Assembly (NCBI RefSeq): GCF_019968905.1
Contig: NZ_CP079946.1
Span: 5,084,001-5,148,000, forward strand
Source of the DNA: Corallococcus sp. EGB
GTDB lineage: Bacteria; Myxococcota; Myxococcia; Myxococcales; Myxococcaceae
Direction: 5' to 3'
Length of the DNA: 64,000 nucleotides
This document shows, piece by piece, positions 1,876-44,538 of this stretch. The translations under genes and the position numbers were made by a program. Under the pieces are notes generated by a model. The model was given only the letters and a program-made list of their open reading frames with translations, was not told the origin of the DNA and searched no databases. Numbering within the stretch: position 1 is the stretch's first letter; each line of letters begins with the position of its first letter.

Positions 1876-2549
1876 TGCGGGGTGCTCTTGGAGGCGGGGG
1901 CCTTCTTGGCCGCCGGAGCGGGGGCACCCTTGGGCGCCTTGTCACTGAGCGTAATCGTTTCCAGGACCACGGGCGTCTGCGGGCGGTCCTGCGCGCTGCG
2001 CGGCACGTTGCCGATCTTCTCCACCACGTCGTAGCCGGTGACGACCTCGCCGAAGATGGTGTGGCGGCCGGTGAGGTGCGCGGGCGTGGAGGTGGTGATG
2101 AAGAACTGGCTGCCGTTGGTGTTGGGGCCCGCGTTCGCCATGGCCAGGAGGCCCGGCTTGTCGAAGCCGCGGCCGCTCTGGAACTCGTCCGCGAAGCGAT
2201 AGCCCGGGTCGCCCATGCCGGTGCCGGTGGGGTCGCCGCCCTGGATCATGAAGCCCGGGATGACGCGGTGGAAGACGGTGCCTTTGTAGAGGGGCTTGCC
2301 CTTCACCTGCTCGCCCGTCTTCGGGTCCGTCCAGGCCTTCTCGCCGGTGGCCAGGCCCACGAAGTTCGCCACCGTGTTGGGCGCGTCCTTGGAGAAGAGC
2401 TTCACGGTGATGACGCCCTGGCTCGTCTTCAGGGTCGCGTAGACGTCCTTGCCGGCCTGGACCTTCTTCGTCCAGGGGCCCGCGGCGGGCTCGGCGGCCA
2501 GGGCTACGACGGCGGCCAGCGCCACGGTGATTCCGAGAAGACGGTGCAT
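1872..2549 (-). CDS. exported cyclophilin-type peptidyl-prolyl isomerase
   Basis: A 225-residue cyclophilin with an N-terminal hydrophobic segment (residues 4-19) ending in an Ala-rich cleavage region, so probably periplasmic. The isomerase domain spans about residues 35-200 with [11 protein letters not shown] and GSQFFITTS. The C-terminal ~20 residues are a Lys/Ala/Pro tail. I chose the ATG at 2547-2549 because it gives a normal signal peptide; a longer reading from 2792 adds about 80 Arg/Gly-rich residues that overlap rnc and look like a shadow. It overlaps the cytosolic cyclophilin downstream by four bases and begins 68 nt after rnc. Confidence 0.92.
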
Positions 2550-2617
2550 GCGGGACAGACTCCAGAGGCTGGAAGGCGCGGACCCTACCCCCCACCCCCC
2601 TGCCCCTCCAAGGGCTT

Positions 2618-3409
2618 TCACGCCGGAGGGTCGTCCGGTGAAGGACCTCCCGCGACGGGGGCCGCGACAGCCAGGGATGCCGGGGATGCCGGCTCGGCCT
2701 TCAGGCGCTCCAGCGTGCTGCGGGCGGCCGCCTGCTCGGCCTCCTTCTTGTTCCGGCCGCTGGCGCGGGCGTACACGGCCTCCCCGATGCACACCTCCAC
2801 CTCGAACACCTTGGAGTGCTCCGGCCCCGTCTCCGACACCACGCGGTAGCGCGGCGACAGCTTGAGCTTCTCGTGGGAGAGCTCCTGGAGGAGCGTCTTG
2901 TAGTCCAGGCGGCCGGCACCGGAGGCCACCTCCTCCAAGAGCTCCGTGAAGCAGCGGTCCACCAGCGCCAGCGCCGGCTCCAGGCCACCGCTCAGGTACA
3001 CCGCGCCCAGCACCGCCTCCAGCGCGTCGGCGAGGATGGAGTTCTTGTCGCGGCCGCCGGACTGGGACTCACCCCGCCCCAGGAGGATCAGCTCGCCCAG
3101 GCGCAGGCCACGGGCCACGCGGGCCAGGCCCTCCTCGTGGACGATGCGGGCGCGCATCTTGGTGAGCTCGCCCTCGGGGACGCCGGGGCAGCGGTCCATC
3201 AGCCGGTGGCTCACGGCCAGGTCCACCACGGCGTCGCCCAGGAACTCCAGGCGCTGGTTGTCCTTGAGGTTCTGGTCGCGGTTCTCGTTGACGTACGTCT
3301 TGTGCGTCAGCGCTTCCAAGGCCAGGTCGCGCTTGGAGAACTGCACGCCCAGGCGTGTCTCCAGGGCCTGCACCCGCTCGACGAGGGTCATCTTCTCCAC
3401 GCGGCTCAC
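2618..3409 (-). CDS. rnc: ribonuclease III
   Basis: RNase III cleaves double-stranded RNA in rRNA precursors and mRNAs. The 263-residue protein has the catalytic RNase III domain with the signature [13 protein letters not shown] near residues 47-59, and a C-terminal double-stranded-RNA-binding domain (about 165-235) ending in the [10 protein letters not shown] motif. After that comes an extra Pro/Ala-rich tail of roughly 25 residues. The start ATG lies four bases inside the end of the preceding gene. Genes for era and der follow, the classic association of rnc with era, here with two cyclophilin genes inserted between them. Confidence 0.95.
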
Positions 3410-5457: not shown

Positions 5458-6987
5458 TCAGACGGGGTGGACGCCGTGCTTCTTCTCCGCACGGGGCTGG
5501 AACTGGCCCGCATAAAGCGAATAACGCTGCATCAATTCCCCGCGCAGGGAGTCGCCGGGGACCACCGCGTCGATGATGAGCTCGCTGGCCAGCTTGAAGA
5601 TGTCCACGTCCTGCTTGTACTCGTCGCGGAGCTTCTGGACGAAGGCCGGCCGCTCGGCCTCCGGCAGCTCCTGGATCTTGTTGAAGTAGACGGCGTTCAC
5701 CGCTGCCTCCGGGCCCATCACGGCGATCATCGCCTGGGGCAGCGCGAGCGTGGCCTCCGGCGCGAAGCCGGGGCCGCTCATGGCGTAGAGGCCTGCACCA
5801 TACGCCTTGCGGACCACCACGCAGATGCGCGGCACGCTCGCCTCCGACACCGCGGAGATCATCTTCGCGCCCGCGCGGATGATGCCCGCGCGCTCCACCT
5901 TGGTGCCGATCATGAAGCCCGGCACGTCCGCCAGGTAGAGCAGCGGGATGTTGAACGCGTCACACAGCCAGATGAACCGGGCCGCCTTGTCCGCGCTGTC
6001 CACGAAGAGCACCCCGCCCTTGTACTTGGGCTGGTTCGCGACGATGCCCACCGGACGGCCGCCAATGCGCGCCAGGCCCGTGATGAGCTCCTGCGCGAAG
6101 AGCTTCTTCACCTCGAACCAGCTGCCCTCGTCGATGAGCTCCGCGATGAGCGCGTGCATGTCGAAGGGCTTGTTCTGATCCGGCGGGACGATCTCGTCCA
6201 CGCGCTTGCCGCTGTGCCTGGGGGCCTTCAGCTCCACGGTGGGCGGGGCCTTGGAGAAGTTCTCCGGGAAGAAGGCCAGGTACTGCTTCGCGGCGGCGAT
6301 GGCCTCCTGCTCCGTCTTCACCAGCACGTCGCCCACGCCGGACACGGAGCAGTGCATCTTCGCGCCGCCCATCTCCTCCAGGGTGACCTTCTCTCCAATG
6401 ACCATCTCCGCCATGCGCGGGCTGCCCAGGTACATGGAGGCGTTGCCCTCCACCATGATGACCAGGTCGCAGAACGCGGGGATGTACGCGCCGCCCGCGG
6501 CGGACGGGCCGAAGAGCAGGCAGATTTGAGGGACGAAGCCCGACAGGTGGACCTCGTTGTAGAAGATGCGGCCCGCGCCCCGGCGGCCGGGGAACATCTC
6601 CACCTGGTCCGTGATGCGCGCACCCGCGCTGTCCACCAGATAGAGCAGCGGGCAGCGCAGCGCCTTCGCCGTCTCCTGGATGCGGAGGATCTTCTCCACC
6701 GTGCGCGCGCCCCAGCTGCCCGCCTTCACCGTGGAGTCGTTGGCCATGATGGCCACCGCTCTGCCGTCAATGCGCGCGACGCCGGTGACGACGCCGTCGG
6801 ACGGCAGCTCCGGGTCCAGGTTGTTGGCGAGCTTGCCGTCCTCCACGAAGGAGTCCGCGTCCACGAGCAGCCGGATGCGCTCGCGCGCGAAGAGCTTGCC
6901 CGTCTCCGCGTTCTTCGCGTGGTACTTGGGCGCGCCGCCCTTCTCCACCTGGGCGATCTTCTCGAGCAGTTTCTGGTCTGAGGACAT
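5458..6987 (-). CDS. acyl-CoA carboxylase beta subunit (carboxyltransferase)
   Basis: The 509-residue protein is the biotin-dependent carboxyltransferase subunit of an acyl-CoA carboxylase. It has the two crotonase-like halves of this family. Motifs include YLVDSAGARI and the oxyanion-hole Gly-rich run GPSAAGGAYIPA in the N-half, and LADVPGFMIGT and RKAYGAGLYAM in the C-half. Substrate could be 3-methylcrotonyl-CoA, propionyl-CoA or acetyl-CoA; gene context with a crotonase and HMG-CoA lyase favours 3-methylcrotonyl-CoA, but this is inference. No biotin carboxylase/biotin carrier subunit is present in the window, so the partner must be elsewhere. The ATG at 6985-6987 matches the usual N-terminus; an upstream GTG-type extension has no family support. 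Confidence 0.93.
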   Translation of the reverse strand: MSSDQKLLEKIAQVEKGGAPKYHAKNAETGKLFARERIRLLVDADSFVEDGKLANNLDPELPSDGVVTGVARIDGRAVAIMANDSTVKAGSWGARTVEKILRIQETAKALRCPLLYLVDSAGARITDQVEMFPGRRGAGRIFYNEVHLSGFVPQICLLFGPSAAGGAYIPAFCDLVIMVEGNASMYLGSPRMAEMVIGEKVTLEEMGGAKMHCSVSGVGDVLVKTEQEAIAAAKQYLAFFPENFSKAPPTVELKAPRHSGKRVDEIVPPDQNKPFDMHALIAELIDEGSWFEVKKLFAQELITGLARIGGRPVGIVANQPKYKGGVLFVDSADKAARFIWLCDAFNIPLLYLADVPGFMIGTKVERAGIIRAGAKMISAVSEASVPRICVVVRKAYGAGLYAMSGPGFAPEATLALPQAMIAVMGPEAAVNAVYFNKIQELPEAERPAFVQKLRDEYKQDVDIFKLASELIIDAVVPGDSLRGELMQRYSLYAGQFQPRAEKKHGVHPV

Positions 6988-7204
6988 GGCCGTCGTCCCA
7001 TACCAAAGAACCCCAGGCCTGGCTGCCTTCTTGCCAATCCAGCCGCCAGCCGTGCCGTCCAAAGGACGACGGATGGGGCCACGGAGGCGCGCGCCGGGGG
7101 ATGTCTCCGGGAGGCACCCTGCCTACCTTCATGTCGCACGGGGGGTGTGCACCCAGGCGGGCCACGCTCGCCCCGTTGAACCGCATCCGGCCCTGGAGGA
7201 ACCC

Positions 7205-27966: not shown

Positions 27967-27980
27967 CTCTCAATTCAGTG

Positions 27981-28053
<73 letters not shown>

Positions 28054-30729: not shown

Positions 30730-30815
30730 TGGCCCTCCCCGGACTCGAACCGGGACGCGGGGTCAGCCGCAGCGGATTTTGAGTCCGCCTCGTCTACCAA
30801 TTTCGACAGAGGGCC
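30730..30815 (-). tRNA. tRNA-Leu (anticodon CAA)
   Basis: An 86-nt class II tRNA on the minus strand. Acceptor GGCCCTC/GAGGGCC is perfect; anticodon stem GCGGA/TCCGC encloses CTCAAAA with anticodon CAA; a long variable arm follows and the T-stem has TTCGAGT. The discriminator is A; CCA is not encoded. It reads the UUG codon, which is rare in such a high-GC genome. Confidence 0.96.
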
Positions 30816-33207: not shown

Positions 33208-34932
33208 ATGAGCGGGATCAGCAAGCTGACGAGTGGTTCGAGGGTGGCGATCGTCGGCGGGGGCATCGCCGGGGCGGGGCTCGCGGCCTCCCTTCTCTTC
33301 AACGGCCGCGCGCGGGGCGTGGCCCTGGACGTGCGCGTCTACGCGGGCGGCACCGAGGAGCGCATCGTGCCCCCTGCCCTGCTCACCCCGGAGTGCCGTT
33401 CACGTCTGGCGGCGCTGGGCTGCCGCATTCCTCCGGAGTGGCGCGCGCATGAGCTGCGCGGCGTGGAGATCATCTCCCAGGGCGAGCGGGAGCTGCTGCC
33501 CTGCGCGGCGGGCGGCCTCTGGGTGGTGGACGGCTGGCCCAAGGGCGAAGGGGGCCTGGACCTGGTGCGCCACGTGCTGTCCACGGCGGCCAGCGCGCAG
33601 GGCGCCCGGTTCGTGAACCGCCACGTGGAGCGCGTGGAGCGGCAGGCGCCGGCTCCGGACGCCCCCGCGGCGGTGCGCAACCAGGGCCCCCTGGTCGTCC
33701 GCGCGCAGGGCAGCGGCGAGCGCTTCCACGCGGTGGCGCTGGCGTCCGGCGCGGGGCCGCTCCTGGGGGACGCGTTCTTCAAGGGCTGCAAGCCGGCGCC
33801 GTCCATGCCGGCGGTGCAGGCGCGGCTGCGGGGCGTGATGCCCGGCCGGGACCTGGCGCCGGTGGCGCGGCTGTGGGTGGCGCCGTTGCCTTCGGTGGAT
33901 GCGCTGTTCCTGATTCCGGGCGCGTCGTCCGTGTACGCGCTGGCTTTCGGCGCGGCGGTGACGCCCGCGGACCTGTGCCAGGTGCTGATGATGGCCGCGC
34001 GCGACGGCATGCTCGAGGAGGGCTTCGAGGTGACGGCGCTGGAGACGACGCGCCTGCCCTTCGGCCCCGGCCGCACGCTGGTGGCGCCCGGGCAGTTGGT
34101 GGTGGGGCCCGCGGCCTTCGGCCACCCGCTGCAGGTGGGCCTGTCGGAGACGCTGGCGTCGTGCAGCCGCGCCGCGGTCGCGCTGCTGGATGGCGGGCTG
34201 GACGCGGCCTCGCTGGAGCGGCGCTACGTGCGCGACGGGCTGGGCGAGCTGATGGAGGACGCGGCGGCGGGAGCGCGCTCCATCGCCTGGCTGCGCCGCG
34301 CGGGCAAGCGGGCCCCGGCGGCGTTCGTCGCGGCGCGGGCGAAGCACTCAGTGGGGGGGGTGTACGGCGGCGGCGTGCTGGGCCTGAGCGGTCCCACTCC
34401 GCTCGGCCTGCTGTCCGCGGCGCGCTGGTCCGGCGTGCGCGAGGTCGTGGGTTCATGGCTGCGCACGCCCATCGAGCCCGTGCCCACGCTGGTGCCGGAG
34501 GTGGAGCCGGATCTGTACTACGTGGTGGACGACGACGCGGACACGCGCGAGGCGCTCACGCTGCTCCTGGAGAGCACCGGCGCGCGCGTGGTGTCCTTCG
34601 CGGACGAGCTGGCGCTGTTCTGCGCGGTGGCGCGCCGTCCGCCCACCGCCATCCTCCTGGACGTCGTGCTGCACTGGGTGGACGGCCTGCGGCTGTGTGA
34701 AGGCCTCAAGCAGCACCCGCTCACCCGCGACACGCGCGTGCTGGTGATGAGCGGCCTCAACCGTCCACACGTGCGTCAGCGCGCGCTCGACGCGGGCGCG
34801 GAGGCCTTCCTGCCCAAGCCGGTGAACCCGGACCGCCTCCTCTGCCAGCTCACCGGCCGCGTGCCGGACCCGCTCGCCGTCATCCGGCCCGCGGTCGTCG
34901 AGACCTTTGGCGAAGACCGCTTTGCGTCCTGA
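33208..34932 (+). CDS. FAD-dependent oxidoreductase fused to a C-terminal receiver domain
   Basis: A 574-residue fusion. The N-terminal part begins with a dinucleotide-binding Rossmann motif, VGGGIAGAGLAAS (residues 16-28), and runs to about 425 with a layout like FAD monooxygenases/geranylgeranyl reductases; the usual C-terminal GD motif is degenerate, reading GPAAFGHPLQVGLSET. Residues about 437-555 are a complete receiver: VVDDDAD acidic pocket, phospho-acceptor Asp485 in ILLDVVLHWVDG, Ser in VMSGLN and Lys537 in LPKPVN. A phosphorylatable switch on a redox enzyme is unusual. It lies 26 nt after a REC-GGDEF gene, so both may answer one kinase. The substrate is unknown. Confidence 0.88.
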   Translation: MSGISKLTSGSRVAIVGGGIAGAGLAASLLFNGRARGVALDVRVYAGGTEERIVPPALLTPECRSRLAALGCRIPPEWRAHELRGVEIISQGERELLPCAAGGLWVVDGWPKGEGGLDLVRHVLSTAASAQGARFVNRHVERVERQAPAPDAPAAVRNQGPLVVRAQGSGERFHAVALASGAGPLLGDAFFKGCKPAPSMPAVQARLRGVMPGRDLAPVARLWVAPLPSVDALFLIPGASSVYALAFGAAVTPADLCQVLMMAARDGMLEEGFEVTALETTRLPFGPGRTLVAPGQLVVGPAAFGHPLQVGLSETLASCSRAAVALLDGGLDAASLERRYVRDGLGELMEDAAAGARSIAWLRRAGKRAPAAFVAARAKHSVGGVYGGGVLGLSGPTPLGLLSAARWSGVREVVGSWLRTPIEPVPTLVPEVEPDLYYVVDDDADTREALTLLLESTGARVVSFADELALFCAVARRPPTAILLDVVLHWVDGLRLCEGLKQHPLTRDTRVLVMSGLNRPHVRQRALDAGAEAFLPKPVNPDRLLCQLTGRVPDPLAVIRPAVVETFGEDRFAS

Positions 34933-35895: not shown

Positions 35896-36807
35896 CTACG
35901 GCGCCAATGGGGCGGGGCGGTTGTAGGGCGGTGCCAGGAACACCGCGCCGGGCTCCTTGCGGAACCACGTGAGCTGCCGCTTGGCGTACCGCCGGGTCTC
36001 CTGCGCGGTGTCGGCGATGGCTTCGTCGCGAGTCATCCGCCCCTCCACCACCGCGCGAGCCTGCACGTACCCGACGCTGCGCATGGGGGCCGCGTCCGCG
36101 TAGCCCTGTTCCAGCAGGGCCCGCGTCTCTTCCACGATGCCCCGTGAGAAGAGCGTCTCCGTGCGCGCGTTGATGGCGGCGTAGAGAGCCTCGCGCGGCG
36201 GGTCGAGCACGTAGAGCTGGAAGGGATAGCGGTCCGGCGTGAAGGCATGGGCGCGGCGGAACTCGGACGCGGTCACGCCTGTCTGCGCGTGGATCTCCAG
36301 GGCGCGGACGACGCGCACCAGGTCCTGGGCGGGCAGCTTCGCCGCGGTCTCCGGATCCACCTCGGACAGACGGCGGTGCACGGCCTCCCTCCCCTGCTCC
36401 GCCGCGAGCGCTTCCAGCGCCGCACGCAGCGAAGGGAGGGCGCCGGGTGCGTCCACCACGCCGTGCAGCAGGACGCGCAGGTACAGGCCGGTGCCACCGA
36501 CGACGAACACCGGCCGGCCCCGGGACGCGATGTCCGCGATGGCGGCGTCCGCGCGGCGTTGGTACTCGGCGGCGGAGAAGGGCTCGAGCGGATCCACGCA
36601 GGAGACCAGGTGGTGCGGCACGGCCGCCAGCTCCTCGGCGGAGGGCTTCGCGGTGCCGATGTCGAAGCCGCGGTACACCTGCTGCGAGTCCGCGCTGACG
36701 ATCTCGCCGCCCGCGGCGCGAGCCCACCCAATGGCCAGCGCCGTCTTCCCGGACGCCGTGGGTCCAGCGATCACCGTCAACGGCACGCGCGTCTCAGCCA
36801 CCAGCAT
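35896..36807 (-). CDS. miaA: tRNA dimethylallyltransferase
   Basis: MiaA adds a dimethylallyl group to A37 of tRNAs that read codons starting with U. The 303-residue protein has the P-loop GPTASGKTALA at 14-24, the substrate loop SADSQQVYRGFDIGTAKP, and the catalytic-domain segment GGTGLYLRVLLHG. The C-terminus has RSVGYVQ (the usual IGY segment) and RYAKRQLTWFR. Length is normal. The ATG at 36805-36807 fits the family. The HPr-kinase-like gene ends 41 nt upstream, so miaA may be read through from that cassette. tRNA-Leu(CAA), which reads UUG, lies 5 kb away and is a predicted substrate. Confidence 0.95.
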   Translation of the reverse strand: MLVAETRVPLTVIAGPTASGKTALAIGWARAAGGEIVSADSQQVYRGFDIGTAKPSAEELAAVPHHLVSCVDPLEPFSAAEYQRRADAAIADIASRGRPVFVVGGTGLYLRVLLHGVVDAPGALPSLRAALEALAAEQGREAVHRRLSEVDPETAAKLPAQDLVRVVRALEIHAQTGVTASEFRRAHAFTPDRYPFQLYVLDPPREALYAAINARTETLFSRGIVEETRALLEQGYADAAPMRSVGYVQARAVVEGRMTRDEAIADTAQETRRYAKRQLTWFRKEPGAVFLAPPYNRPAPLAP

Positions 36808-36848
36808 CCGCCTCCCACGCCCGCTGTAACGCAGACGCGAGCCCCTCG

Positions 36849-37700
36849 CTAGAGCCGCGCCGCTTCGGACAGCCGCGCCCGCACCACGTCCGCGGCGCTG
36901 GCATCGCGCGCGAACACGAGCCGCGCGGTCTCCACGTGCGACAGCACGCGCCCGGCCGAGGCCACCAGCGTGCCCCGGCCCGCGGGCGTGGGCTCGGGCA
37001 GCAGGGCGTTCAACAAGAGCACCCGGGCCACCTCCCCCGCGCCCTGCGCCTCCCACCGCGAGGCCCCGGCCCAGCCCAGTGTCCCCACCGCGACGAGCGC
37101 CGCGTCGTCCGCCCGGGCCGGCACGTTCCAGGGCGTCCCCGCCGCCCGCCATCCGCCACCCTCCCCGGGCCACACCGCCACCAGCTCATCCGCGAGCACC
37201 GCCCCACCCGCCTCGCGCCACAGCCCGCCCAGGGTGCTCTTGCCCGCGCCGGAGTGCCCCACGAACAGCGCGGCCCGGCCCTCGTGCACCAGCCCCACCC
37301 CGTGGACGAGCAACCCACCGCGCTTCGCCAGCGCGGACGCGAGCATCACCTTGATCACGTTCTCCACCGGGTAGCGCCCGGACCCGATGACGTCCGCCCG
37401 GCTCCGGTCTGGCGAGAGCACCGCGGAGTACTCCGCGCCGCCGTCCACGCGCAGCGTCCCGGAGTCACCGGGTTCCAGCCGCGGCAGCTCCTGCAGGGTG
37501 GGCGGAGCGCGCGGGCCGGGAGGGCTGCGCATCACCAGCCGGGCATCGGGAGCCACGGCATCGGGCGCGAGGTACGCGCCGAACACGCGCTGGAGCGGAC
37601 CGGCGAGCGCCGCGTCCTCCACTTCGAGCGCCACGGTCCACCCGGCCAGGGTGATCCGGAGCGCACCGCCACGGGGACCCGGCGAGGGGTCCCCCTCCAT
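36849..37700 (-). CDS. HPr-kinase-like protein (HprK-related kinase)
   Basis: A 283-residue P-loop protein related to HPr kinase C-terminal domains. The Walker A is GHSGAGKST at residues 148-156, preceded by HGVGLVHEGRAALFV and followed by the acidic pair in LADELVAVWP, which stands in for the HprK Asp pair. The first ~120 residues are a family-specific beta-rich region. No HPr protein gene is present. Relatives of this kind phosphorylate ribosomally made peptides (lasso-peptide kinases) or belong to PqqD-linked systems of unknown function. The ATG overlaps the stop of the 51-residue peptide gene by one base (TGATG), so the two are coupled. PqqD and S26-peptidase genes lie in the same run. 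Confidence 0.8.
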   Translation of the reverse strand: MEGDPSPGPRGGALRITLAGWTVALEVEDAALAGPLQRVFGAYLAPDAVAPDARLVMRSPPGPRAPPTLQELPRLEPGDSGTLRVDGGAEYSAVLSPDRSRADVIGSGRYPVENVIKVMLASALAKRGGLLVHGVGLVHEGRAALFVGHSGAGKSTLGGLWREAGGAVLADELVAVWPGEGGGWRAAGTPWNVPARADDAALVAVGTLGWAGASRWEAQGAGEVARVLLLNALLPEPTPAGRGTLVASAGRVLSHVETARLVFARDASAADVVRARLSEAARL

Positions 37701-37855
37701 CACGGCACGCACTCCGATTCGCCGGGGATGTTGCAGATGGACAGCTGCGCCAGCGCGACGAACGGCTGCTCCCACAGGATGGCGGGAGGCACGTACACGG
37801 CAGGCGGCTTCGGCACGGTGGGACCCGCGGGAGGCTGTGAAGGTCGTTGGCTCAC
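37700..37855 (-). CDS. 51-residue peptide, candidate modified-peptide precursor
   Basis: A small gene starting with GTG at 37853-37855, with AGGTGG eight bases upstream, and ending TGA at 37700-37702, the last base of which is the first of the HPr-kinase-like ATG. The 51 residues are Pro-rich (10 Pro). A segment PPAVYVPPAILWEQPF at residues 17-32 has the Tyr-x-Pro-Pro-x-hydrophobic-Leu pattern seen in leaders bound by PqqD-type recognition domains. It ends in a short segment with two Cys (41 and 49), SICNIPGESECVP. No signal peptide. It has no homologue that I can name. Role as substrate of the neighbouring kinase and PqqD-like protein is inferred from position and shape. Confidence 0.65.
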   Translation of the reverse strand: MSQRPSQPPAGPTVPKPPAVYVPPAILWEQPFVALAQLSICNIPGESECVP

Positions 37856-37867
37856 GTGAAGGCCCAC

Positions 37868-40800
37868 CTAGAAGGGCACCGGGAAGGCACAGATTCGACC
37901 ATCCGCGGTACCAACATGCAACCGGCCAACGGTGTGATCGACGGTGGGCACGCCCATGATCTGCGCCGGTCCCACGGTCACCTGCCCGGTCTCCAGGCCG
38001 TTGTTCAGCAGCTCCAACTGGTGGATCTTCCCATCCGCGCTGCCGACATAGACGCGCGGCACACCGTTCACGTTGAGGGTGAAGGGGCCGGACGGCTTCA
38101 CGATGTTCGCCGTCCAGACGAGCTCCGGCCGGGTGCCCCCCTCCTTGAACTCATAGTGCTCCACGGTGTTGTTCGTACGGCTCACCACGAAGCCGCGCCC
38201 CTGGGGCCGCGCAAAGAAGGCGAAGGTCCGCTGCGAGGCGCCCGCCACCTGGACGGTCCACGCAATCGCGTAGGTGGACGGATTCAAGCCGTACACCTTG
38301 CCGTCGTTGGCGGTGACCAGGATCTGGTTGCTCGTGGCATTGCGGACCACGCCAAACTCCAGGTCGCCCAGCGACAGCCGCGCCACCTCCGCGCCCGTGA
38401 GGCTGTTGAGCACGCGCAGCGTGGCCGTGCTCGTCCCCGCCGTCGTCGGCACGTAGAGCCGGTTCGTCGTGTAGTCCACCAGCATGCCGCCGCTCACCAT
38501 GCCCAGGTCCCCGGGCCGGTAGCGCCAGATGAGCGCGCCCGTGGCCGCGTTCAGCGCGACCACCTGGTTCTGCGCGGACGCGTTGCGCGTGGCGAAGATG
38601 GCCAGGTCCACGTTGGAGTACTTCGTCCGGTACTCCGGGTTCGCGTAGTCGAGCAGCTGCGTCACGGGGAACGAGCTGATGTTCCCCAGCCCCAGCGTGG
38701 TGTTCTTCCACAGGAGGTCGCCCGTGGCCGCGTTGATCACCGCCGGCACGCCGGCCTGATCACCCACGACGATCCACTGCTGCCCGGGCCGGCCCAGCAG
38801 AGGCACCACCGGGAAGCGGGTGCCGATCTTCGCCGACAGCTTCACCGGCCGGAAGCGCTCGGCGCCGTCCGCGGAGGGGTTCACGCTGTTCGTGAGCACC
38901 CCCACCAACGAGTCGTTGAACGAGCCGAAGATGCCAACGCCCAGCTCGGTGACGGGCTGCTGCGCCGCCTCCAACCCCACCGAGTAGCACCACAGCGGGT
39001 TGCCCGCCACGCGCGCCCGGGGCGTGACCACCAGGCCCACCGACGTGGGCTGGTTGCCCGGCCCGTACCGCAGCTCGTCGTCCGCGTTGAACACGCGGTA
39101 GTAGTACGTCGTGCCGTTCGTCACCGCCGTGTCGGTCATGGACGACGCGGAGCTGAACTCGTCCACGGAGACCACCGTCGCGTTGCCCAGCACGTCTCCC
39201 ACCGCGTAGCGCATGCCGCTGGTGGGCGCGATGGTGGGCGTCGCCCCCACGGAGCGCAGCACCAGGGTGCCGCCGTGGTTGAAGGGGTTGTCCCACGTGA
39301 GCGTCACGCTGCCGTCGCGGGCCACGCCGGTGAGGCGCGCCACGTCCGGGGACGTGGTCACCGCGAGCAGCGTCATGGTCGCTTCCACGCGAATGCGCGG
39401 GTCGTTCCAGCCCTGGTTCAGCTCCAGCCGGTGACGGAACGGCGTGTCCGCGGTGACGGCGGAGAAGCCTGAATAGGTGATGCGGAAGGTGGCCTCGCCG
39501 CCCACCGGGATGCCGGAGTCCGACTCCCAGGTGTAGCCGGCCGCGTCCGTGGAGACGACCCAGTCCCCGAACGCCTGCGGCCCCGACGCCGCCACGGCGA
39601 AGTAGTTCACCGCGGGCTTGAACAGCGTCACCATGTAGATGGGCAGCGCGCCGCGGTTCTGCACCGTGTACGCCACCGTCACGCCCGTGGCCGCCGTGGA
39701 CACCGACTCCTGGCTCAGCCGCACACGGTGCTCCACGATGCGGCCCTTGCGCGCCGTGACGGCATCCCCCGCCACCGCCGAACCATTGAGCGTCCCATCC
39801 ACCTGCGCCTGGAACTGGTAGCTGGCGCCGGGCGTGCCCGACACCTGATAGCGCCAGGTGAACTGCGCGGAGGCCCCTGGCGCCAGCTGCGCCACGCTGT
39901 CCGGCGACGGCCCGGACACGAGCGTCGCCGTTGCCCGGCCCAGCAGCACCGGCGCGCGCGGACGCACCTGGGTGTACGTGTTCGTGCTGGAGGTGTTGAA
40001 CACGGTGAGGCGCAGCGTCACCTGATCGCCAGCGAACGCATCCACGATGTCCATGTCCGCCGCAGCCACCAGGGTGCCCACGTCCGCCATGGGCGAGTCC
40101 GCCAGCGGAGCGTTCGCGCTCGTCGCGCGCGCCCGGACGCGAGCGGCCCCGGCGCCGGCGGCGGTGGCCCGCAGATTGACCGCGACGACGCCCGCGGCCC
40201 GGGCCGCCACGGACACGTTGGTCGAGGGGACCTTGCTCACGGTGGTGAGCGGCGCACCGCTCGTCGAGGTGGGATTGTCCACGGTCACGGAGGCCGTGCC
40301 CGTGCCGCGGTTCTCCACCACCACGCGCACCGCGGTGGTGTCGTTGACCGCCAGCACGCGCGGCGCCAGCGTCACGTTCGTGGCCAGGATGGCCCGCGTC
40401 CACGCGGTCATGTTGTTGATGTTGTAGTTGTAGCTCGTGCCGTCACACTGGTCTCGGGCGTACGTGCCCGCCACGAGGCGCTCGGTGGTGTTGTCGGTGG
40501 AGCGGTTCGCCGGGGCCACCACGTTCAGCACGAAGCGCGCGGACTCATTGCGAGCCAGCCCGCGCCCGTTGTCCACGCAGCCTTTCGTGGACTGGAAGGT
40601 GATGCGCCGCTCGTTGGAGTCGATGTACTCGATCTTCCAGTTCGGGTTCTCGTCCGCCGGCAGGCCGCCCAGCAATTGGTAGCCCGTCGGCAGGACGAAG
40701 GACACCTCCGAGAGGCGGGCGTTGTTCGTGGCCGCGGTCGTGTTCGTCACCTCCACGACGAGCTCGGACGCGTCGTCCATCACCACGCGCGCGACGGTGT

Positions 40801-40894
40801 CTCCGGCGGCGGGGACGGGGCGCACGGTCCAGGTCTGGGAGAAGCCCACCGCGGGCAGCAGCGCCGCGAGGAGCGCGAGGATGCGGACGTTCAT
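37868..40894 (-). CDS. large secreted protein: beta-rich repeats, FnIII and PQQ-type propeller
   Basis: A 1008-residue exported protein. The signal peptide (1-19) ends at AVGFSQ. Residues about 25-500 are beta-rich with Asn/Thr/Ala-rich repeats resembling conserved-repeat (DUF11/CARDB-like) domains; several NTT/STSS runs are seen. An FnIII-like domain spans about 510-625 (VTLTWDNP ... TYYYRVFNADDE). The C-terminal third (about 640-1008) has recurring blade motifs ATGDLLWKN, ATGALIWRY, YAIAWTVQV, ELVWTANIV, typical of a PQQ-like beta-propeller, ending GRICAFPVPF. No membrane anchor. The ATG at 40892-40894 with GAGG six bases upstream is chosen over a GTG four codons earlier. It lies 13 nt after the Pro-Glu lipoprotein and 12 nt before the 51-residue peptide. 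Confidence 0.85.
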   Translation of the reverse strand: MNVRILALLAALLPAVGFSQTWTVRPVPAAGDTVARVVMDDASELVVEVTNTTAATNNARLSEVSFVLPTGYQLLGGLPADENPNWKIEYIDSNERRITFQSTKGCVDNGRGLARNESARFVLNVVAPANRSTDNTTERLVAGTYARDQCDGTSYNYNINNMTAWTRAILATNVTLAPRVLAVNDTTAVRVVVENRGTGTASVTVDNPTSTSGAPLTTVSKVPSTNVSVAARAAGVVAVNLRATAAGAGAARVRARATSANAPLADSPMADVGTLVAAADMDIVDAFAGDQVTLRLTVFNTSSTNTYTQVRPRAPVLLGRATATLVSGPSPDSVAQLAPGASAQFTWRYQVSGTPGASYQFQAQVDGTLNGSAVAGDAVTARKGRIVEHRVRLSQESVSTAATGVTVAYTVQNRGALPIYMVTLFKPAVNYFAVAASGPQAFGDWVVSTDAAGYTWESDSGIPVGGEATFRITYSGFSAVTADTPFRHRLELNQGWNDPRIRVEATMTLLAVTTSPDVARLTGVARDGSVTLTWDNPFNHGGTLVLRSVGATPTIAPTSGMRYAVGDVLGNATVVSVDEFSSASSMTDTAVTNGTTYYYRVFNADDELRYGPGNQPTSVGLVVTPRARVAGNPLWCYSVGLEAAQQPVTELGVGIFGSFNDSLVGVLTNSVNPSADGAERFRPVKLSAKIGTRFPVVPLLGRPGQQWIVVGDQAGVPAVINAATGDLLWKNTTLGLGNISSFPVTQLLDYANPEYRTKYSNVDLAIFATRNASAQNQVVALNAATGALIWRYRPGDLGMVSGGMLVDYTTNRLYVPTTAGTSTATLRVLNSLTGAEVARLSLGDLEFGVVRNATSNQILVTANDGKVYGLNPSTYAIAWTVQVAGASQRTFAFFARPQGRGFVVSRTNNTVEHYEFKEGGTRPELVWTANIVKPSGPFTLNVNGVPRVYVGSADGKIHQLELLNNGLETGQVTVGPAQIMGVPTVDHTVGRLHVGTADGRICAFPVPF

Positions 40895-40907
40895 GGCGGG
40901 CCTCACG

Positions 40908-41516
40908 TCACGGCTCCAGGGTGAAGGACGTGGTGGCCAGCTGGGCCCCGTCCAGGAAGAAGCGCACCTGCCAGGTGCCCGTCATGCGTGACATGGACAC
41001 GGACGTGCCCGCCACCGGCAGCGAATAGCGCAGCGTGCGCGTCTCCTCCGGCGGCGCCTCCACCGTCGCGCTCCGCTTCTCGTACGGGCTCCCGCCCGGC
41101 GCGATGAACTCCACGTCCACCAGGCCCTTGTTCCGCACGCCGCTCACCACGAAGTCCACGTCCACCTGCAGCACCTCGGACAGCGGCGCGGGCTCCGAAC
41201 CCGCGCCCACCACCGCCGCGCTCCCAGCAGGGGGCGGCAGCGCCACCGGTGGCGGCTCCTCCTCCGGCGGCGGCTCTTCGGGAGGCGGCTCTTCCGGCGG
41301 TGGCTCCTGCGGAGGCGGCTGCTCCACCACGGGCGCCGGGGGCGGCGGCCGGGCCACGCTCCCGCCGCCGGCCAGCACGTCCGTCGGCTCCACGGGGGGG
41401 ACGGAGCCCGTCCCCGGCCCTGGCTTCAGGGTCGGCGGCGGCAGGGGGGACACCCCTTCCGAGCACGCCGACAGCACCATCGCACCCGCCATCACGGCCA
41501 CGAGCGCCCGCATCAT
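40908..41516 (-). CDS. lipoprotein with Pro/Glu repeat stalk
   Basis: A 202-residue lipoprotein. The signal peptide ends in a lipobox with Cys18 (VLSAC). Residues about 55-92 consist of repeats of the type EEPPP and QEPPP, an extended polyproline-rich stalk. The C-terminal ~100 residues are a compact beta-rich domain (LQVDVDFVVSGVRNKG, TLRYSLPVAGTSVSMSRM, TWQVRFFLDGAQLATTSFTLEP), probably immunoglobulin-like. The ATG overlaps the PqqD stop by four bases, tying this envelope protein to the peptide-handling genes. It could present or anchor the large secreted protein encoded next. Confidence 0.85.
   Translation of the reverse strand: MMRALVAVMAGAMVLSACSEGVSPLPPPTLKPGPGTGSVPPVEPTDVLAGGGSVARPPPPAPVVEQPPPQEPPPEEPPPEEPPPEEEPPPVALPPPAGSAAVVGAGSEPAPLSEVLQVDVDFVVSGVRNKGLVDVEFIAPGGSPYEKRSATVEAPPEETRTLRYSLPVAGTSVSMSRMTGTWQVRFFLDGAQLATTSFTLEP
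41250..41326 (-). repeat. 15-nt tandem repeat encoding EEPPP units
   Basis: Imperfect repeats of about 15 nt within the lipoprotein gene encode alternating Pro triplets and Glu/Gln pairs. Such repeats can change number by slippage, which would alter stalk length. About five copies are visible. Confidence 0.7.
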
Positions 41517-41827
41517 GAGTCCTCCAGCGGCGCGGCACCGGCCGGCGCGCGCACTTCGTCCAACAGACCCTTCCGCTGAAGCTCCCCCAGGAAGCGCAGC
41601 GTGTCGGTCAGCACCGGACCGACGTCGGTCGAAAACTCGGAAGCCACCTGCTCCGCCACCGCCCGGGCCGAGCGCCGTCCGTCGCACAGCGCCCAGATGC
41701 GCGCCGCCGTCGGGTTGAGCCCGCGCAGCGTGCGCCCCTCCGCGTCCAGCACCAGGAAGTCCGCGCCGAAGCCCTCCCCCGAGGTCCCCACACGCCGCCT
41801 GGGCACGCTGTCCGCCGGAAAGCTCAT
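41513..41827 (-). CDS. PqqD-family peptide chaperone
   Basis: A 104-residue protein of the PqqD fold, the RiPP precursor recognition element that delivers peptides to modifying enzymes. The pattern is complete: LDAEGRTLRGLNPTAARIWALCDGRRS, AVAEQVASEF and DTLRFLGELQRKGLLD. The first ~20 residues are a charged tail and the last ~15 an Ala/Pro tail. ATG at 41825-41827 overlaps the TGA of the S26-type gene (ATGA), and its own stop overlaps the lipoprotein ATG (ATGA), so three proteins are translationally linked. No PQQ biosynthesis genes are near, so this is not PQQ synthesis. The 51-residue peptide is the best candidate client. Confidence 0.88.
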   Translation of the reverse strand: MSFPADSVPRRRVGTSGEGFGADFLVLDAEGRTLRGLNPTAARIWALCDGRRSARAVAEQVASEFSTDVGPVLTDTLRFLGELQRKGLLDEVRAPAGAAPLEDS

Positions 41828-42234
41828 GCGCGGCCCGCCCTCCCCAGCCACGCGGCCACCTGGCGCTTCAGCGTCGCGCGCCAGCGGCCCAGCCTCCGCG
41901 GCCCCACGTCCCAGCAGTCCATCTCCAGCAGCGCCCCGCCCCGGCGCACACGCCGCGCACGCCCCAGGATACGAACGAGCGGCAGCGGCGGATCTTCGGC
42001 GCCGCCGTTGTCCCCACGCAGCGCGCAGACCTGCCCGTCACACCAACGCACCCGGTGCAGCACCAGCGAGGAGTCGAAGCGCGCCAGCACCACCTCGCCC
42101 GGGCGCGGCGGCTCCATCAGCGGCTCCACCTCCGCCACGTCCCCCGCGCGCAACGACGGCCACATGCTGTCCCCGGCCACGGGGATCCAGCGGAGGCCTT
42201 CGATCACGGAGCCGGGTTGGGGAGCGCTCGCCAT
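41824..42234 (-). CDS. S26/S24-type serine peptidase without membrane anchor
   Basis: A 136-residue peptidase-like protein. The Ser23 active-site box is VAGDSMWPSLRAGD; the second box VLHRVRWCDG has His60 where bacterial leader peptidases use Lys, and LRGDNGG closes the fold. This is the Ser-His form of the S26B/SipW type. Unlike most signal peptidases there is no obvious membrane helix, so it may act in the cytoplasm or be an S24 relative. The ATG at 42232-42234 has no Shine-Dalgarno; a weak -10-like TACATT ends nine bases before it, so the mRNA may be leaderless. A TTG start at 42288 is possible but poorly spaced. It heads the peptide cassette. Confidence 0.78.
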   Translation of the reverse strand: MASAPQPGSVIEGLRWIPVAGDSMWPSLRAGDVAEVEPLMEPPRPGEVVLARFDSSLVLHRVRWCDGQVCALRGDNGGAEDPPLPLVRILGRARRVRRGGALLEMDCWDVGPRRLGRWRATLKRQVAAWLGRAGRA

Positions 42235-42365
42235 GGAGCATGCAATGTACCCTACACTCTCAGGCTCTGCGAATCCCTGAAGACTCAATCCCCCAGCAAT
42301 TGCCAGGACTTACGGCACTTAACACCTTTACTCCGGGATTTTCAGGGAAGACAGGCCGCCCCCCG

Positions 42366-42397
42366 CCCCTCCGGCCGGGCGCGTCATGCCGGAGGGG
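42366..42397 (-). terminator. hairpin after hisS
   Basis: CCCCTCCGGC and GCCGGAGGGG pair perfectly over ten bases with a 12-base loop, ten nt after the hisS stop. The tail is G-rich without a T-run. It separates hisS from the peptide cassette that follows on the same strand. Confidence 0.6.
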
Positions 42398-42406
42398 AGG
42401 ATGGGA

Positions 42407-43699
42407 TCAAGCCGTGGGCGCGGCGGCCGGAGCCTCCGGCTGGGCCCGCACGGTGGCGGTGACGCTGTCCAGGGCCACCGGGATGGGTTCGCCGCCGGCC
42501 ATGGGCTTGAGCTTCGCCTGGCCGGTGGTGCGCTCCTGTTCGCCCAGCACCAGCGTGAAGCGGGCGCCGGACTTGTCCGCGCGCTTCATCTGGCTCTTGA
42601 GGCTGCCGCCGCGCGTGTCGAAGTCCACCTTCAGGCCCTCGCGGCGCAGGCGGCTGGCCAGCTTGAGCCCCTCGTCCTGAGAGCCCTCGTCGGCCACGGC
42701 GATGAACAGGTCCGGCCGTTGGGTGAAGGACTTGCCGGCGGACTTGAGCAGCAGCACCAGCCGGTCCAGCCCCATGGCGAAGCCCACCGCGGGCACGTCC
42801 GGGCCGCCCAGGCCCTTCATCATCTTGTCGTAGCGCCCGCCGCCGCACACGGTGCTGGCGGTGCCCAGCGCGGGGTCCGCGGCGATGAACTCGAAGACGG
42901 TCCGCGTGTAGTAGTCCAGGCCGCGCACCAGCCGGTGGTTCACCGCGTAGCGGATGCCTAGCACGCCCAGCTTGCGCTGCAGGTCGCTGAAGTGCGCGCG
43001 GCACGGCTCGCACAGGAACTCCTGCACGTTGGGTCCCGCCGCGGCCACCGCCTGGCACTTCTCGTTCTTGCAGTCGAGCACGCGCAGCGGGTTGCGCTCC
43101 AGTCGCTGCTGACAGTCCGCGCACAGCTCGTCTCGGTGCGCCTTGAGGTACTCCACCAGCTTCGCGTGGTAGGCGGGCCGGCAGTTGTCGTCGCCCAGCG
43201 AGTTGATGTTCAGGGTGACGTCCTGGAGGCCCAGGGCTTCCAGGAACTGCACCACCATGTCCATCAGCTCCACATCCTGCGCGGCCTCCTTCGCGCCGTA
43301 GGCCTCCGCGCCAATCTGGTAGAACTGACGGTAGCGGCCCGTCTTCATCCGCTCGTAGCGGAACATGGGCCCCGTGTAGAACCAGCGCGTCACCGGCTCC
43401 TGGTTGTTCACCGAGTGCTCGATGTACGCGCGCGCCGCGGGCGCGGTGCCCTCCGGACGCAGGGACAGGCTGCGGCCGCCCTTGTCCTCGAAGGTGTACA
43501 TTTCCTTGCCGACGATGTCCGTCTCCTCGCCCACGCTGCGCACGAAGAGGGCGGTGTCCTCCACCATCGGCGTGCGCACCTCGCCGTAGCCGAAGCGGCC
43601 GAACAGCGTGCGCGCGGTCGACTCGACGAACTGCCAGACCTCGATGTCGCCCGGCAGAAGGTCGTTCATCCCCTTCACGCCGTTGATCTTCTGGCTCAC
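42407..43699 (-). CDS. hisS: histidyl-tRNA synthetase
   Basis: A 430-residue class II synthetase charging tRNA-His. Motif 2 region RPEGTAPAARAYIEHS and the HisA/HisB signature segments VRGLDYYTRTVFEF and GGGRYDKM are present. A Cys-rich insertion (C-x-x-C ... C) around residues 175-230 matches that in many bacterial enzymes of this type and probably binds zinc. The C-terminal anticodon-binding domain ends in a Pro/Ala tail. The ATG overlaps the stop of psd by four bases, so the two genes are coupled, although their functions are unrelated. Confidence 0.96.
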   Translation of the reverse strand: MSQKINGVKGMNDLLPGDIEVWQFVESTARTLFGRFGYGEVRTPMVEDTALFVRSVGEETDIVGKEMYTFEDKGGRSLSLRPEGTAPAARAYIEHSVNNQEPVTRWFYTGPMFRYERMKTGRYRQFYQIGAEAYGAKEAAQDVELMDMVVQFLEALGLQDVTLNINSLGDDNCRPAYHAKLVEYLKAHRDELCADCQQRLERNPLRVLDCKNEKCQAVAAAGPNVQEFLCEPCRAHFSDLQRKLGVLGIRYAVNHRLVRGLDYYTRTVFEFIAADPALGTASTVCGGGRYDKMMKGLGGPDVPAVGFAMGLDRLVLLLKSAGKSFTQRPDLFIAVADEGSQDEGLKLASRLRREGLKVDFDTRGGSLKSQMKRADKSGARFTLVLGEQERTTGQAKLKPMAGGEPIPVALDSVTATVRAQPEAPAAAPTA

Positions 43700-44538
43700 G
43701 TGATGACTCCGATACGCGTGCCCATGCGCACCACCGCTTCCGCCTGGAGGCTGTCGTCCCAGCGCACGCGGCCGGGCTCGAAGCAGAGGATGACCGTGGA
43801 GCCCATCTCGAAGCGGCCCAGCTCGCCGCCCTTCTCCACCGGGATGGCCGTGCCGTACTGGTGCACCTTGCCGGGCTGGCCGAGGTGCGTGGTGATGTCC
43901 TCGTACGACGCCTTGATGCGCGACACGCAGGTGGCGCCCACCTTCACCACCGCCACCTTGCCGGCCGCGGTGTCCAGGTACGTCACCAGCCGCTCGTTCA
44001 CGCAGAACAGCGACTGCTTGTTCTTCACCGACGCGGGGTTCACCGGCCAGAACTCACCCGGGATGTACGCGTACCCGGTGATGGTGCCGCCCAGCGGCGC
44101 GTGGATGCGGTGGTAGTCGCGCGGCGACAGGTACAGCGTCGTCCAGGCGCCGCCGTGGAAGGGCTTCGCCGCCTGGGAGTCCCCCAGCAGCTCGTCCACC
44201 GTGTACTCGATGCCCTTCGCCTGCAGGCAGCGCCCGTTGTCCGCGTAGCCCACCTGGGACACCCGGCCGTCCACCGGGGACACGACGACCTTCTCACCCG
44301 CGTCCACCGGGCGCAGGCCCGGCTTCAGGCCGCGGGTGAAGAACTGGGCGAAGGTCGGGTACTTCTCGAAGGAGTGCTCCGCCTCCTCCATGTCCACGTT
44401 GTACGCCTTGGCGAAGGCGCGCATGGCCCAGTGGTGCACCGGCGCGGGCGCGGGCAGGCGCGTGGCCAGGCCCACCGCGGAGGACACCGCCGACTTGGGC
44501 AGCACGCGCATCAACTTCATGAAGGTCTGTTCGTTCAT
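43696..44538 (-). CDS. psd: phosphatidylserine decarboxylase proenzyme
   Basis: A 280-residue membrane-associated enzyme making phosphatidylethanolamine, the main phospholipid. The active pyruvoyl group arises by self-cleavage at the Gly-Ser of MGSTV, with Ser247 becoming pyruvoyl. Other landmarks are FFTRGLKPGLRPV, VVSPVDGRV and DYHRIHAPL with the catalytic His. Length fits the short, PSD-I class. Its gene overlaps hisS by four bases. It adds to the envelope-lipid theme of the window. Confidence 0.94.
   Translation of the reverse strand: MNEQTFMKLMRVLPKSAVSSAVGLATRLPAPAPVHHWAMRAFAKAYNVDMEEAEHSFEKYPTFAQFFTRGLKPGLRPVDAGEKVVVSPVDGRVSQVGYADNGRCLQAKGIEYTVDELLGDSQAAKPFHGGAWTTLYLSPRDYHRIHAPLGGTITGYAYIPGEFWPVNPASVKNKQSLFCVNERLVTYLDTAAGKVAVVKVGATCVSRIKASYEDITTHLGQPGKVHQYGTAIPVEKGGELGRFEMGSTVILCFEPGRVRWDDSLQAEAVVRMGTRIGVIT

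Follow-up and report, generated by a model that had tools for sequence, protein, structure and literature searches.

In the window, that is, the whole 64,000-nucleotide stretch of Corallococcus sp. EGB DNA that was analyzed, a gene cluster on the minus strand encodes, in this order, an S24/S26-type peptidase, a PqqD-family protein (RRE), a lipoprotein, a secreted protein with Ig-like and β-propeller parts, a small peptide and an HPr-kinase-like protein. It is flanked by genes that we take, from sequence recognition, to be the housekeeping genes psd and hisS (before) and miaA (after). The peptidase gene (41824..42288, minus strand) encodes 136 residues from an ATG at 42234 or 154 residues from a TTG, and its product matched PF00717 above the cut-off (E 4.8e-8). 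The PqqD gene (41513..41851, minus strand; 112 residues, or 104 from an internal ATG) was the sole match to PF05402 in this genome (E 2.2e-14; 54 bits versus a cut-off of 23.4). The lipoprotein (40908..41516, minus strand; 202 residues) was recognized by eye from an LSAC lipobox and matched no family, and the secreted protein (37868..40894, minus strand; 1008 residues) has a signal-like N-terminus (by eye), an Ig-like N-terminal part and a BamB/PQQ_2-like β-propeller C-terminal part. The last gene (36849..37703, minus strand) encodes the HPr-kinase-like protein, of 283 residues from the ATG at 37700 or 284 from a GTG at 37703. No exporter was recognized in the cluster.

Between the secreted protein and the kinase, the first-pass annotation of this DNA had proposed an overlooked gene. 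The minus-strand open reading frame in question occupies 37700..37855 including its stop; the coding part, 37703-37855, starts with GTG at 37855, comprises 51 stop-free codons and translates as VSQRPSQPPAGPTVPKPPAVYVPPAILWEQPFVALAQLSICNIPGESECVP. The features claimed for it were all found in the sequence: AGGTGG, a candidate ribosome-binding site, stands on the same strand at 37864..37869, 8 bases ahead of the GTG; the A of the TGA (37702-37700) is also the first base of the kinase ATG at 37700; the frame fills the entire gap from the upstream gene (stop 37870-37868) to the kinase gene; the Tyr-x-Pro-Pro-x-Ile-Leu segment is YVPPAIL at residues 21-27; and the short end contains Cys41 and Cys49.

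We compared both ends of the frame among 16 loci of the genus. The start codon was at the same position in all of them, as GTG in nine and ATG in seven. Eight of the nine GTG-using loci, including that of the window, carried TAGGTGG upstream, and the remaining one carried TAGGGAGG; in the seven ATG-using loci, the ATG and the preceding gene's stop codon share bases in the sequence ATGA. A second in-frame GTG lies at 37867, a place at which the seven ATG-type loci had no start codon. At the 3' end, the sequence GTGA (37700..37703, minus strand), in which the stop of the peptide gene overlaps the GTG from which the kinase gene probably starts, was kept in 16/16 loci, whereas TGATG occurred in only two (L001 and L015). 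The kinase gene more likely starts at GTG 37703 than at ATG 37700, since it is the former overlap that is kept throughout.

Because the DNA is GC rich, the length of an open reading frame alone proves nothing, and indeed 97 frames of at least 80 residues were listed in a 20-kb part of the window, many of them spurious; the decision therefore rested on conservation and comparison. When 96 genomes of the family were searched throughout, the frame was intact and free of internal stops in 16/16 genomes of the genus, 27/27 of g19 and 2/2 of g5. All 16 matches in the own genus had E values of 2.3e-16 or better, and weaker matches were obtained in further family genomes. A 14-row profile (E ≤ 0.01) detected the peptide in 54 of 96 genomes of the family, 55 of 145 of the order and 56 of 195 of the phylum sample; the two matches outside the family were weak (E 0.002 and 0.006), with adjoining genes of the same kinds. 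Profile searches drew on Myxococcota genomes, and a pattern-limited scan of all phyla returned only Myxococcaceae records, from Corallococcus, Myxococcus, Pyxidicoccus, Citreicoccus and Archangium. One match, in contig 36 of G045 (L050), lay in a different frame; it was considered false and excluded from the locus counts.

We also computed pN/pS from 40 sequences for the 31 codons at the 3' end. It was 0.38 in the genus, 0.15 in g19 and 0.33 when the two groups were compared with each other. When the reading frame was shifted, the values between the genus and g19 were 1.5 and 2.5, and stops appeared in 4/40 and 16/40 sequences, respectively. These results indicate purifying selection on these 31 codons. 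An excess of synonymous change had been named beforehand as support for the gene, and loss of the frame or start in close relatives as grounds against it; the former was observed, and neither kind of loss occurred, the start being kept in all 16 genus loci. We give almost no credence to the explanation that the frame is there by chance, or that it serves only to couple translation and yields no functional protein. Frames of such length are common in GC-rich DNA, but the amino-acid conservation extends over 54 family genomes without internal stops, pN/pS is well below 1 in this frame only, the gene overlaps are kept at both ends, and Rfam gave no match in 36000-43800. An RNA element was likewise considered and dropped because the conservation is at the amino-acid level. 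On this comparative evidence, we conclude that the frame is a real gene, conserved in soil bacteria of Corallococcus, Myxococcus and related genera, that standard annotation would miss, as the first-pass annotation had suggested. The peptide matched no family in Pfam or NCBIfam (in NCBIfam, neither did four of its relatives) and nothing in the PDB, and no description of it was found in the literature searched.

The aligned peptides share a plan consisting of a variable N-terminus, a conserved YxxPx[IV]xW...LAQ block, a nearly fixed Ser/Thr 18 residues past the Tyr (Tyr+18) and a tail with two Cys residues. Among 14 diverse members, mean pairwise identity was 0.78 in the 17-residue Tyr-to-Gln block, 0.42 in the tail and 0.26 in the N-terminus; when three more distant members were added, the values were 0.67 for the block from Tyr, 0.38 for the tail and 0.27 for the N-terminus. 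In the peptide of the window, the YxxPxI motif (Y21-V-P-P24-A-I26; codons at 37778..37795, minus strand) is the predicted PqqD-binding part of the leader, by analogy with the motif function described in an extract of PMC10368454. The expected conserved YxPP and variable end were thus observed in part: the block is conserved, and the end varies only between genera, because the tail is nearly invariant (C.IPGESEC.P) inside Corallococcus and Myxococcus. Across genera, its length and sequence differ (CNIPGESECVP, CIPGQDPRCTP, CDIPGSCSDLP and others). The combination of a conserved leader and a variable core accordingly holds between genera and fails inside them.

With a one-residue insertion taken out of one row, the alignment of 17 class-1 peptides had Ser at position Tyr+18 in 15 rows and Thr in the other two, which are distant peptides; the entropy of this position was 0.52 bits compared with 1.85 and 3.01 bits at the adjacent positions. 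In the window, this residue is Ser39 (codon 37739..37741, minus strand), the predicted phospho-acceptor. Cys41 and Cys49 had earlier been proposed as core residues together with Ser/Thr-type acceptors; Ser39, which stands before the cysteines, and not Cys, is the best candidate acceptor. The two-Cys tail reads C-x-I-P-G-E-S-E-C (codons 37709..37735, minus strand). Of 36 distinct motif-bearing tails, 34 had two Cys and 33 had C..PG; L102 has a single Cys, and the last Cys is displaced in L069 and L067. Small residues occupied both positions of A-x-A in 33 of the 36 distinct tails, and A34-L35-A36 (codons 37748..37756, minus strand) could, speculatively, be where the S24/S26-type peptidase cuts. 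The earlier proposal of a precursor with a leader and a short Cys-containing core is retained as a prediction, with a YxxPxL/I-type leader and a two-Cys tail.

The model of the HPr-kinase-like protein (mean pLDDT 92.9) has the PEPCK/HprK fold. Foldseek matched it to PEPCK (E 7e-7) and HprK/P (E 2.6e-5), and superposition on PEPCK aligned 251 residues (Z ~15, rmsd 4.6). A profile search against the PDB returned HprK/P (E 6e-5), and phmmer with the single sequence gave no useful match there. Together with the P-loop GHSGAGKST, the fold places the protein in the HPr kinase/PEPCK superfamily. Its scores against TIGR04352 and TIGR04355 were at most 20.6 bits, far under the cut-off of 200; TIGR04352 was matched by 25 of 27 kinase homologs at E ≤ 0.001. 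Among these 27 homologs, H133, K154 and D171 were invariant, and G148, S155 and E172 were conserved in at least 90%. According to an extract of PMC10368454, the kinase BsfK depends on H148, G163, K169, S170, D186 and D187, to which H133, G148, K154, S155, D171 and E172 correspond by spacing. Five of the six residues named there are identical and the sixth is changed from Asp to Glu, and we regarded the catalytic residues as present on this basis.

As for the other proteins, the peptidase keeps GDSMWPS, LHRV and GDN, and motifs of this kind are expected in a Ser-His-Asp enzyme of the S24/S26 type. The C-terminal part of the 1008-residue protein gave Foldseek matches to BamB (TM-score by target up to 0.67); matches to Ig repeats and axoneme proteins, dominant though they were, had low TM-scores and were set aside.

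We then considered the linkage of these genes. The kinase gene was present in 46 of 49 peptide loci (L001-L049); none was found near the peptide in the L036 and L037 stretches, and the contig of L035 ends just past the peptide. In 18 longer loci (L031-L034 and L036-L049), tblastn detected PqqD in 18/18 and the peptidase in 15/18. A PqqD ortholog occurred in 56 of 96 family genomes, namely, all 54 that bear the peptide together with G045 and G051. In G045 (L112), PqqD was without a peptide match and no such cluster was seen on inspection; in G051 (L111), PqqD and HprK-like frames follow a different small peptide with S-F-C...C (by eye). The latter (contig 885, approximately 2000-3300) ends in RRKLLKSGFIAPAVLASFVLSRDALAKTSFCDKNPDHKKCQ, with S/T before two Cys, and possibly represents a third leader type. 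In G050 (L037 and L104), the peptide, PqqD and peptidase genes share one contig and the kinase homolog has different neighbors on a second; it may be possible to separate the kinase from the other members of the cluster. The claim that the peptide gene is coupled to the HPr-kinase-like gene needs widening: the kinase gene does adjoin it, but the peptide gene belongs to a larger cluster. Two distant loci contain the same kinds of genes. In G110 (L102), the peptidase, PqqD, peptide, propeller protein, lipoprotein (by eye) and kinase occur together in a different order, and G155 (L103) combines the genes for the peptide, the kinase and PqqD with those for a propeller-type protein, a lipoprotein (by eye) and a radical SAM/SPASM protein. 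The radical SAM/SPASM gene (L103 7890-8966, plus strand) lies between the HprK-like gene and PqqD, as in the SynChlorMet and GeoRSP cassettes.

HprK-like matches were present in 79 of 96 family genomes, a wider range than that of the peptide, partly because there is a second peptide family. At 12 loci (L091-L100, L105 and L109), a peptide of mostly the form Y.PP.VRSEKILV..LF, with at least two Cys and a plan like that of the peptide in the window, is encoded between the gene of a giant protein (1,939-2,022 residues) and an HprK-like gene. Its profile (E ≤ 0.01) matched 22 family genomes and 4 others, of 193. None of 11 tails in this family contained A-x-A; the one giant protein that was scanned has FG-GAP and Ig-like repeats, and one PqqD was confirmed by Pfam. 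In L091, a gene at 6218-7183 (minus strand), directly after the HprK-like gene, encodes a fusion protein in which Pfam identified a GNAT acetyltransferase domain and whose N-terminal part looks S24-like by eye. In L110 (1-1490, plus strand), HprK-like and S24-type genes follow a peptide containing RKPYTQPQLTRVELRPQEAVLGACK, another Y..P peptide type.

As in RRE-dependent RiPP systems, a short, conserved precursor-like gene thus lies beside putative maturation genes, and a PqqD/RRE protein is encoded in the cluster. We propose, with a probability of about 0.62, that the product of the frame is the substrate of a small maturation system of the RiPP type, in which the PqqD protein presents the peptide, the kinase phosphorylates Ser39 and the peptidase trims the leader. 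The peptide would be made in translational coupling with its neighbors, with which its gene overlaps. The PqqD protein would bind the YxxPxI leader, and the HPr-kinase-like protein, with the help of PqqD, would phosphorylate Ser39, the hydroxyl residue at Tyr+18. A cytoplasmic S24/S26-type peptidase might then cut off the leader, possibly after A34-L35-A36 (the weakest step), which would leave a tail of ~15 residues with two Cys. The mature phosphopeptide could, speculatively, have a constant, non-diversifying role linked with the β-propeller protein and lipoprotein encoded alongside it. The system would then work like that half of phosphorylated lasso-peptide clusters which comprises the kinase and the RRE, the enzymes that form the lasso being absent. 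Selection, the fixed cluster, the co-occurrence with PqqD, the stronger conservation of the leader than of the tail and the Ser/Thr at Tyr+18 are consistent with this proposal, and the match to BsfK residues, the confident kinase fold and the second peptide family of the same plan also point to it. However, several results speak against it: the last catalytic Asp of BsfK corresponds to Glu and the hydroxyl stands at Tyr+18 instead of +19; the TIGR04352/TIGR04355 scores are weak, an exporter was not recognized in the cluster and HprK-like proteins range more widely than the peptide; the tail hardly varies within a genus, in contrast to the majority of RiPP cores; and there are the loci without a nearby kinase (L036 and L037), the genomes with PqqD and no peptide (G045 and G051) and the lack of A-x-A in the second family.

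Some known cassettes are similar in part. The HPr-rel-A cassette (TIGR04352 kinase and TIGR04353 PqqD) likewise pairs an HprK-related kinase with a PqqD-family partner, but the proteins of the window scored 18.9 of 200 and 17.2 of 35 bits, respectively, under the cut-offs. The SynChlorMet cassette (ScmC, the PqqD-like ScmD and the radical SAM proteins ScmE/ScmF, by NCBIfam names) also combines HprK-like and PqqD-like proteins, and the distant locus L103 likewise has a radical SAM/SPASM protein; however, the cluster of the window has no radical SAM protein and all scores were under the cut-off. The name PadeK is used for the paeninodin-type lasso kinase. Kinases of this type are HPr-kinase homologs that phosphorylate a precursor peptide, as is predicted for that of the window, but extracts of PMC8498205 and PMC10368454 describe modification of a C-terminal Ser, whereas the peptide of the window ends in Cys-x-Pro. 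Also similar in outline is the phosphorylated lasso-peptide cluster bsf of Bradymonas sediminis (BsfA, BsfB1 and BsfK), as described in an extract of PMC10368454: it shares a YxxPxL-type leader, a PqqD-like RRE and an HPr-kinase homolog, with the hydroxyl acceptor 19 residues past Tyr in BsfA and 18 here. There, the residue that BsfK phosphorylates in BsfA is Ser3 (Tyr+19 in that paper's numbering), and Thr is also accepted; the PqqD-like BsfB1 accelerates the reaction; and a YxxPxL/I-type leader motif is used by lasso-type RRE (PqqD) proteins. Compared with bsf as given in that extract, the cluster of the window is without the transglutaminase-like B2 and the Asn-synthetase-like cyclase, has an S24/S26-type peptidase, and co-encodes a lipoprotein and a β-propeller protein.

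This difference bears on whether the peptide could belong to a degenerate or hidden lasso system, with a ring formed via, for example, Ser39 and Glu46 and with the cyclase and B2 acting from elsewhere in the genome. The YxxPxI leader, PqqD and an HPr-kinase homolog all occur in lasso clusters, according to extracts of PMC8498205 and PMC10368454. The PF05402 match supplies a PqqD-like B1, while the lasso PqqD models NF033530 and NF033536 stayed under the cut-off, and five Asn_synthase (PF00733) matches exist in the genome. However, the nearest of these is weak and ~0.3 Mb away, the sole PF13471 match is partial, weak (E 7e-5) and ~3.2 Mb away, an S24-type peptidase stands where B2 would be, and the tails of other genera have no consistent Asp/Glu position. 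Because neither a B2 nor a cyclase gene is near, a lasso product is improbable, and the assignment was dropped. Even less probable, in our estimation, is a disulfide-bonded or metal-binding mini-protein whose two Cys are functional, with the kinase and PqqD serving another substrate. The regularity of the two Cys and of C..PG among the distinct tails would be expected of such a protein, but the Tyr-to-Gln block and not the Cys tail is the most conserved part, the exceptions in L102, L069 and L067 lose or shift a Cys, and the genomic linkage to PqqD is complete.

The main rival, which we consider unlikely, is a phospho-switch, in which the peptide is an intracellular regulatory protein, phosphorylated by the kinase and bound by PqqD, that controls, for example, secretion or assembly of the β-propeller protein. 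The near-invariance of the tail inside genera, the failure to recognize an exporter in the cluster and the constant co-occurrence of a large secreted protein are in its favor. It does not, however, account readily for the S24/S26-type peptidase in the cluster, or for tails that differ in length and sequence across genera, like RiPP cores; the radical SAM/SPASM protein in the L103 cluster also fits chemical maturation.

If the peptide is matured as proposed, it would be a missing substrate for kinase/PqqD cassettes of Myxococcus and Corallococcus, social bacteria that have been studied extensively, and the prediction is specific, naming one residue, one kinase and one RRE protein. HPr-type peptide kinases would then work beyond lasso peptides, and through the tie to giant secreted propeller proteins the RiPP machinery would have gained a new use. 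A broader reading, which we offer as a doubtful extension, is that Myxococcota possess a non-lasso, kinase-dependent RiPP class in which a phosphorylated two-Cys peptide acts on or is joined to a giant secreted β-propeller protein encoded in the same cluster. As an equally doubtful part of this reading, the propeller protein would be BamB-like in one branch and of the FG-GAP type in the other, and the peptide would serve the cell surface and not be an antibiotic.

Elsewhere in the window, a plus-strand frame at 33208-34932 encodes 574 residues that by eye resemble a fusion of a flavin-dependent oxidoreductase with a receiver domain of the response-regulator type, and genes for tRNA-Ala (27980-28053) and tRNA-Leu (30730-30815) lie on the minus strand.
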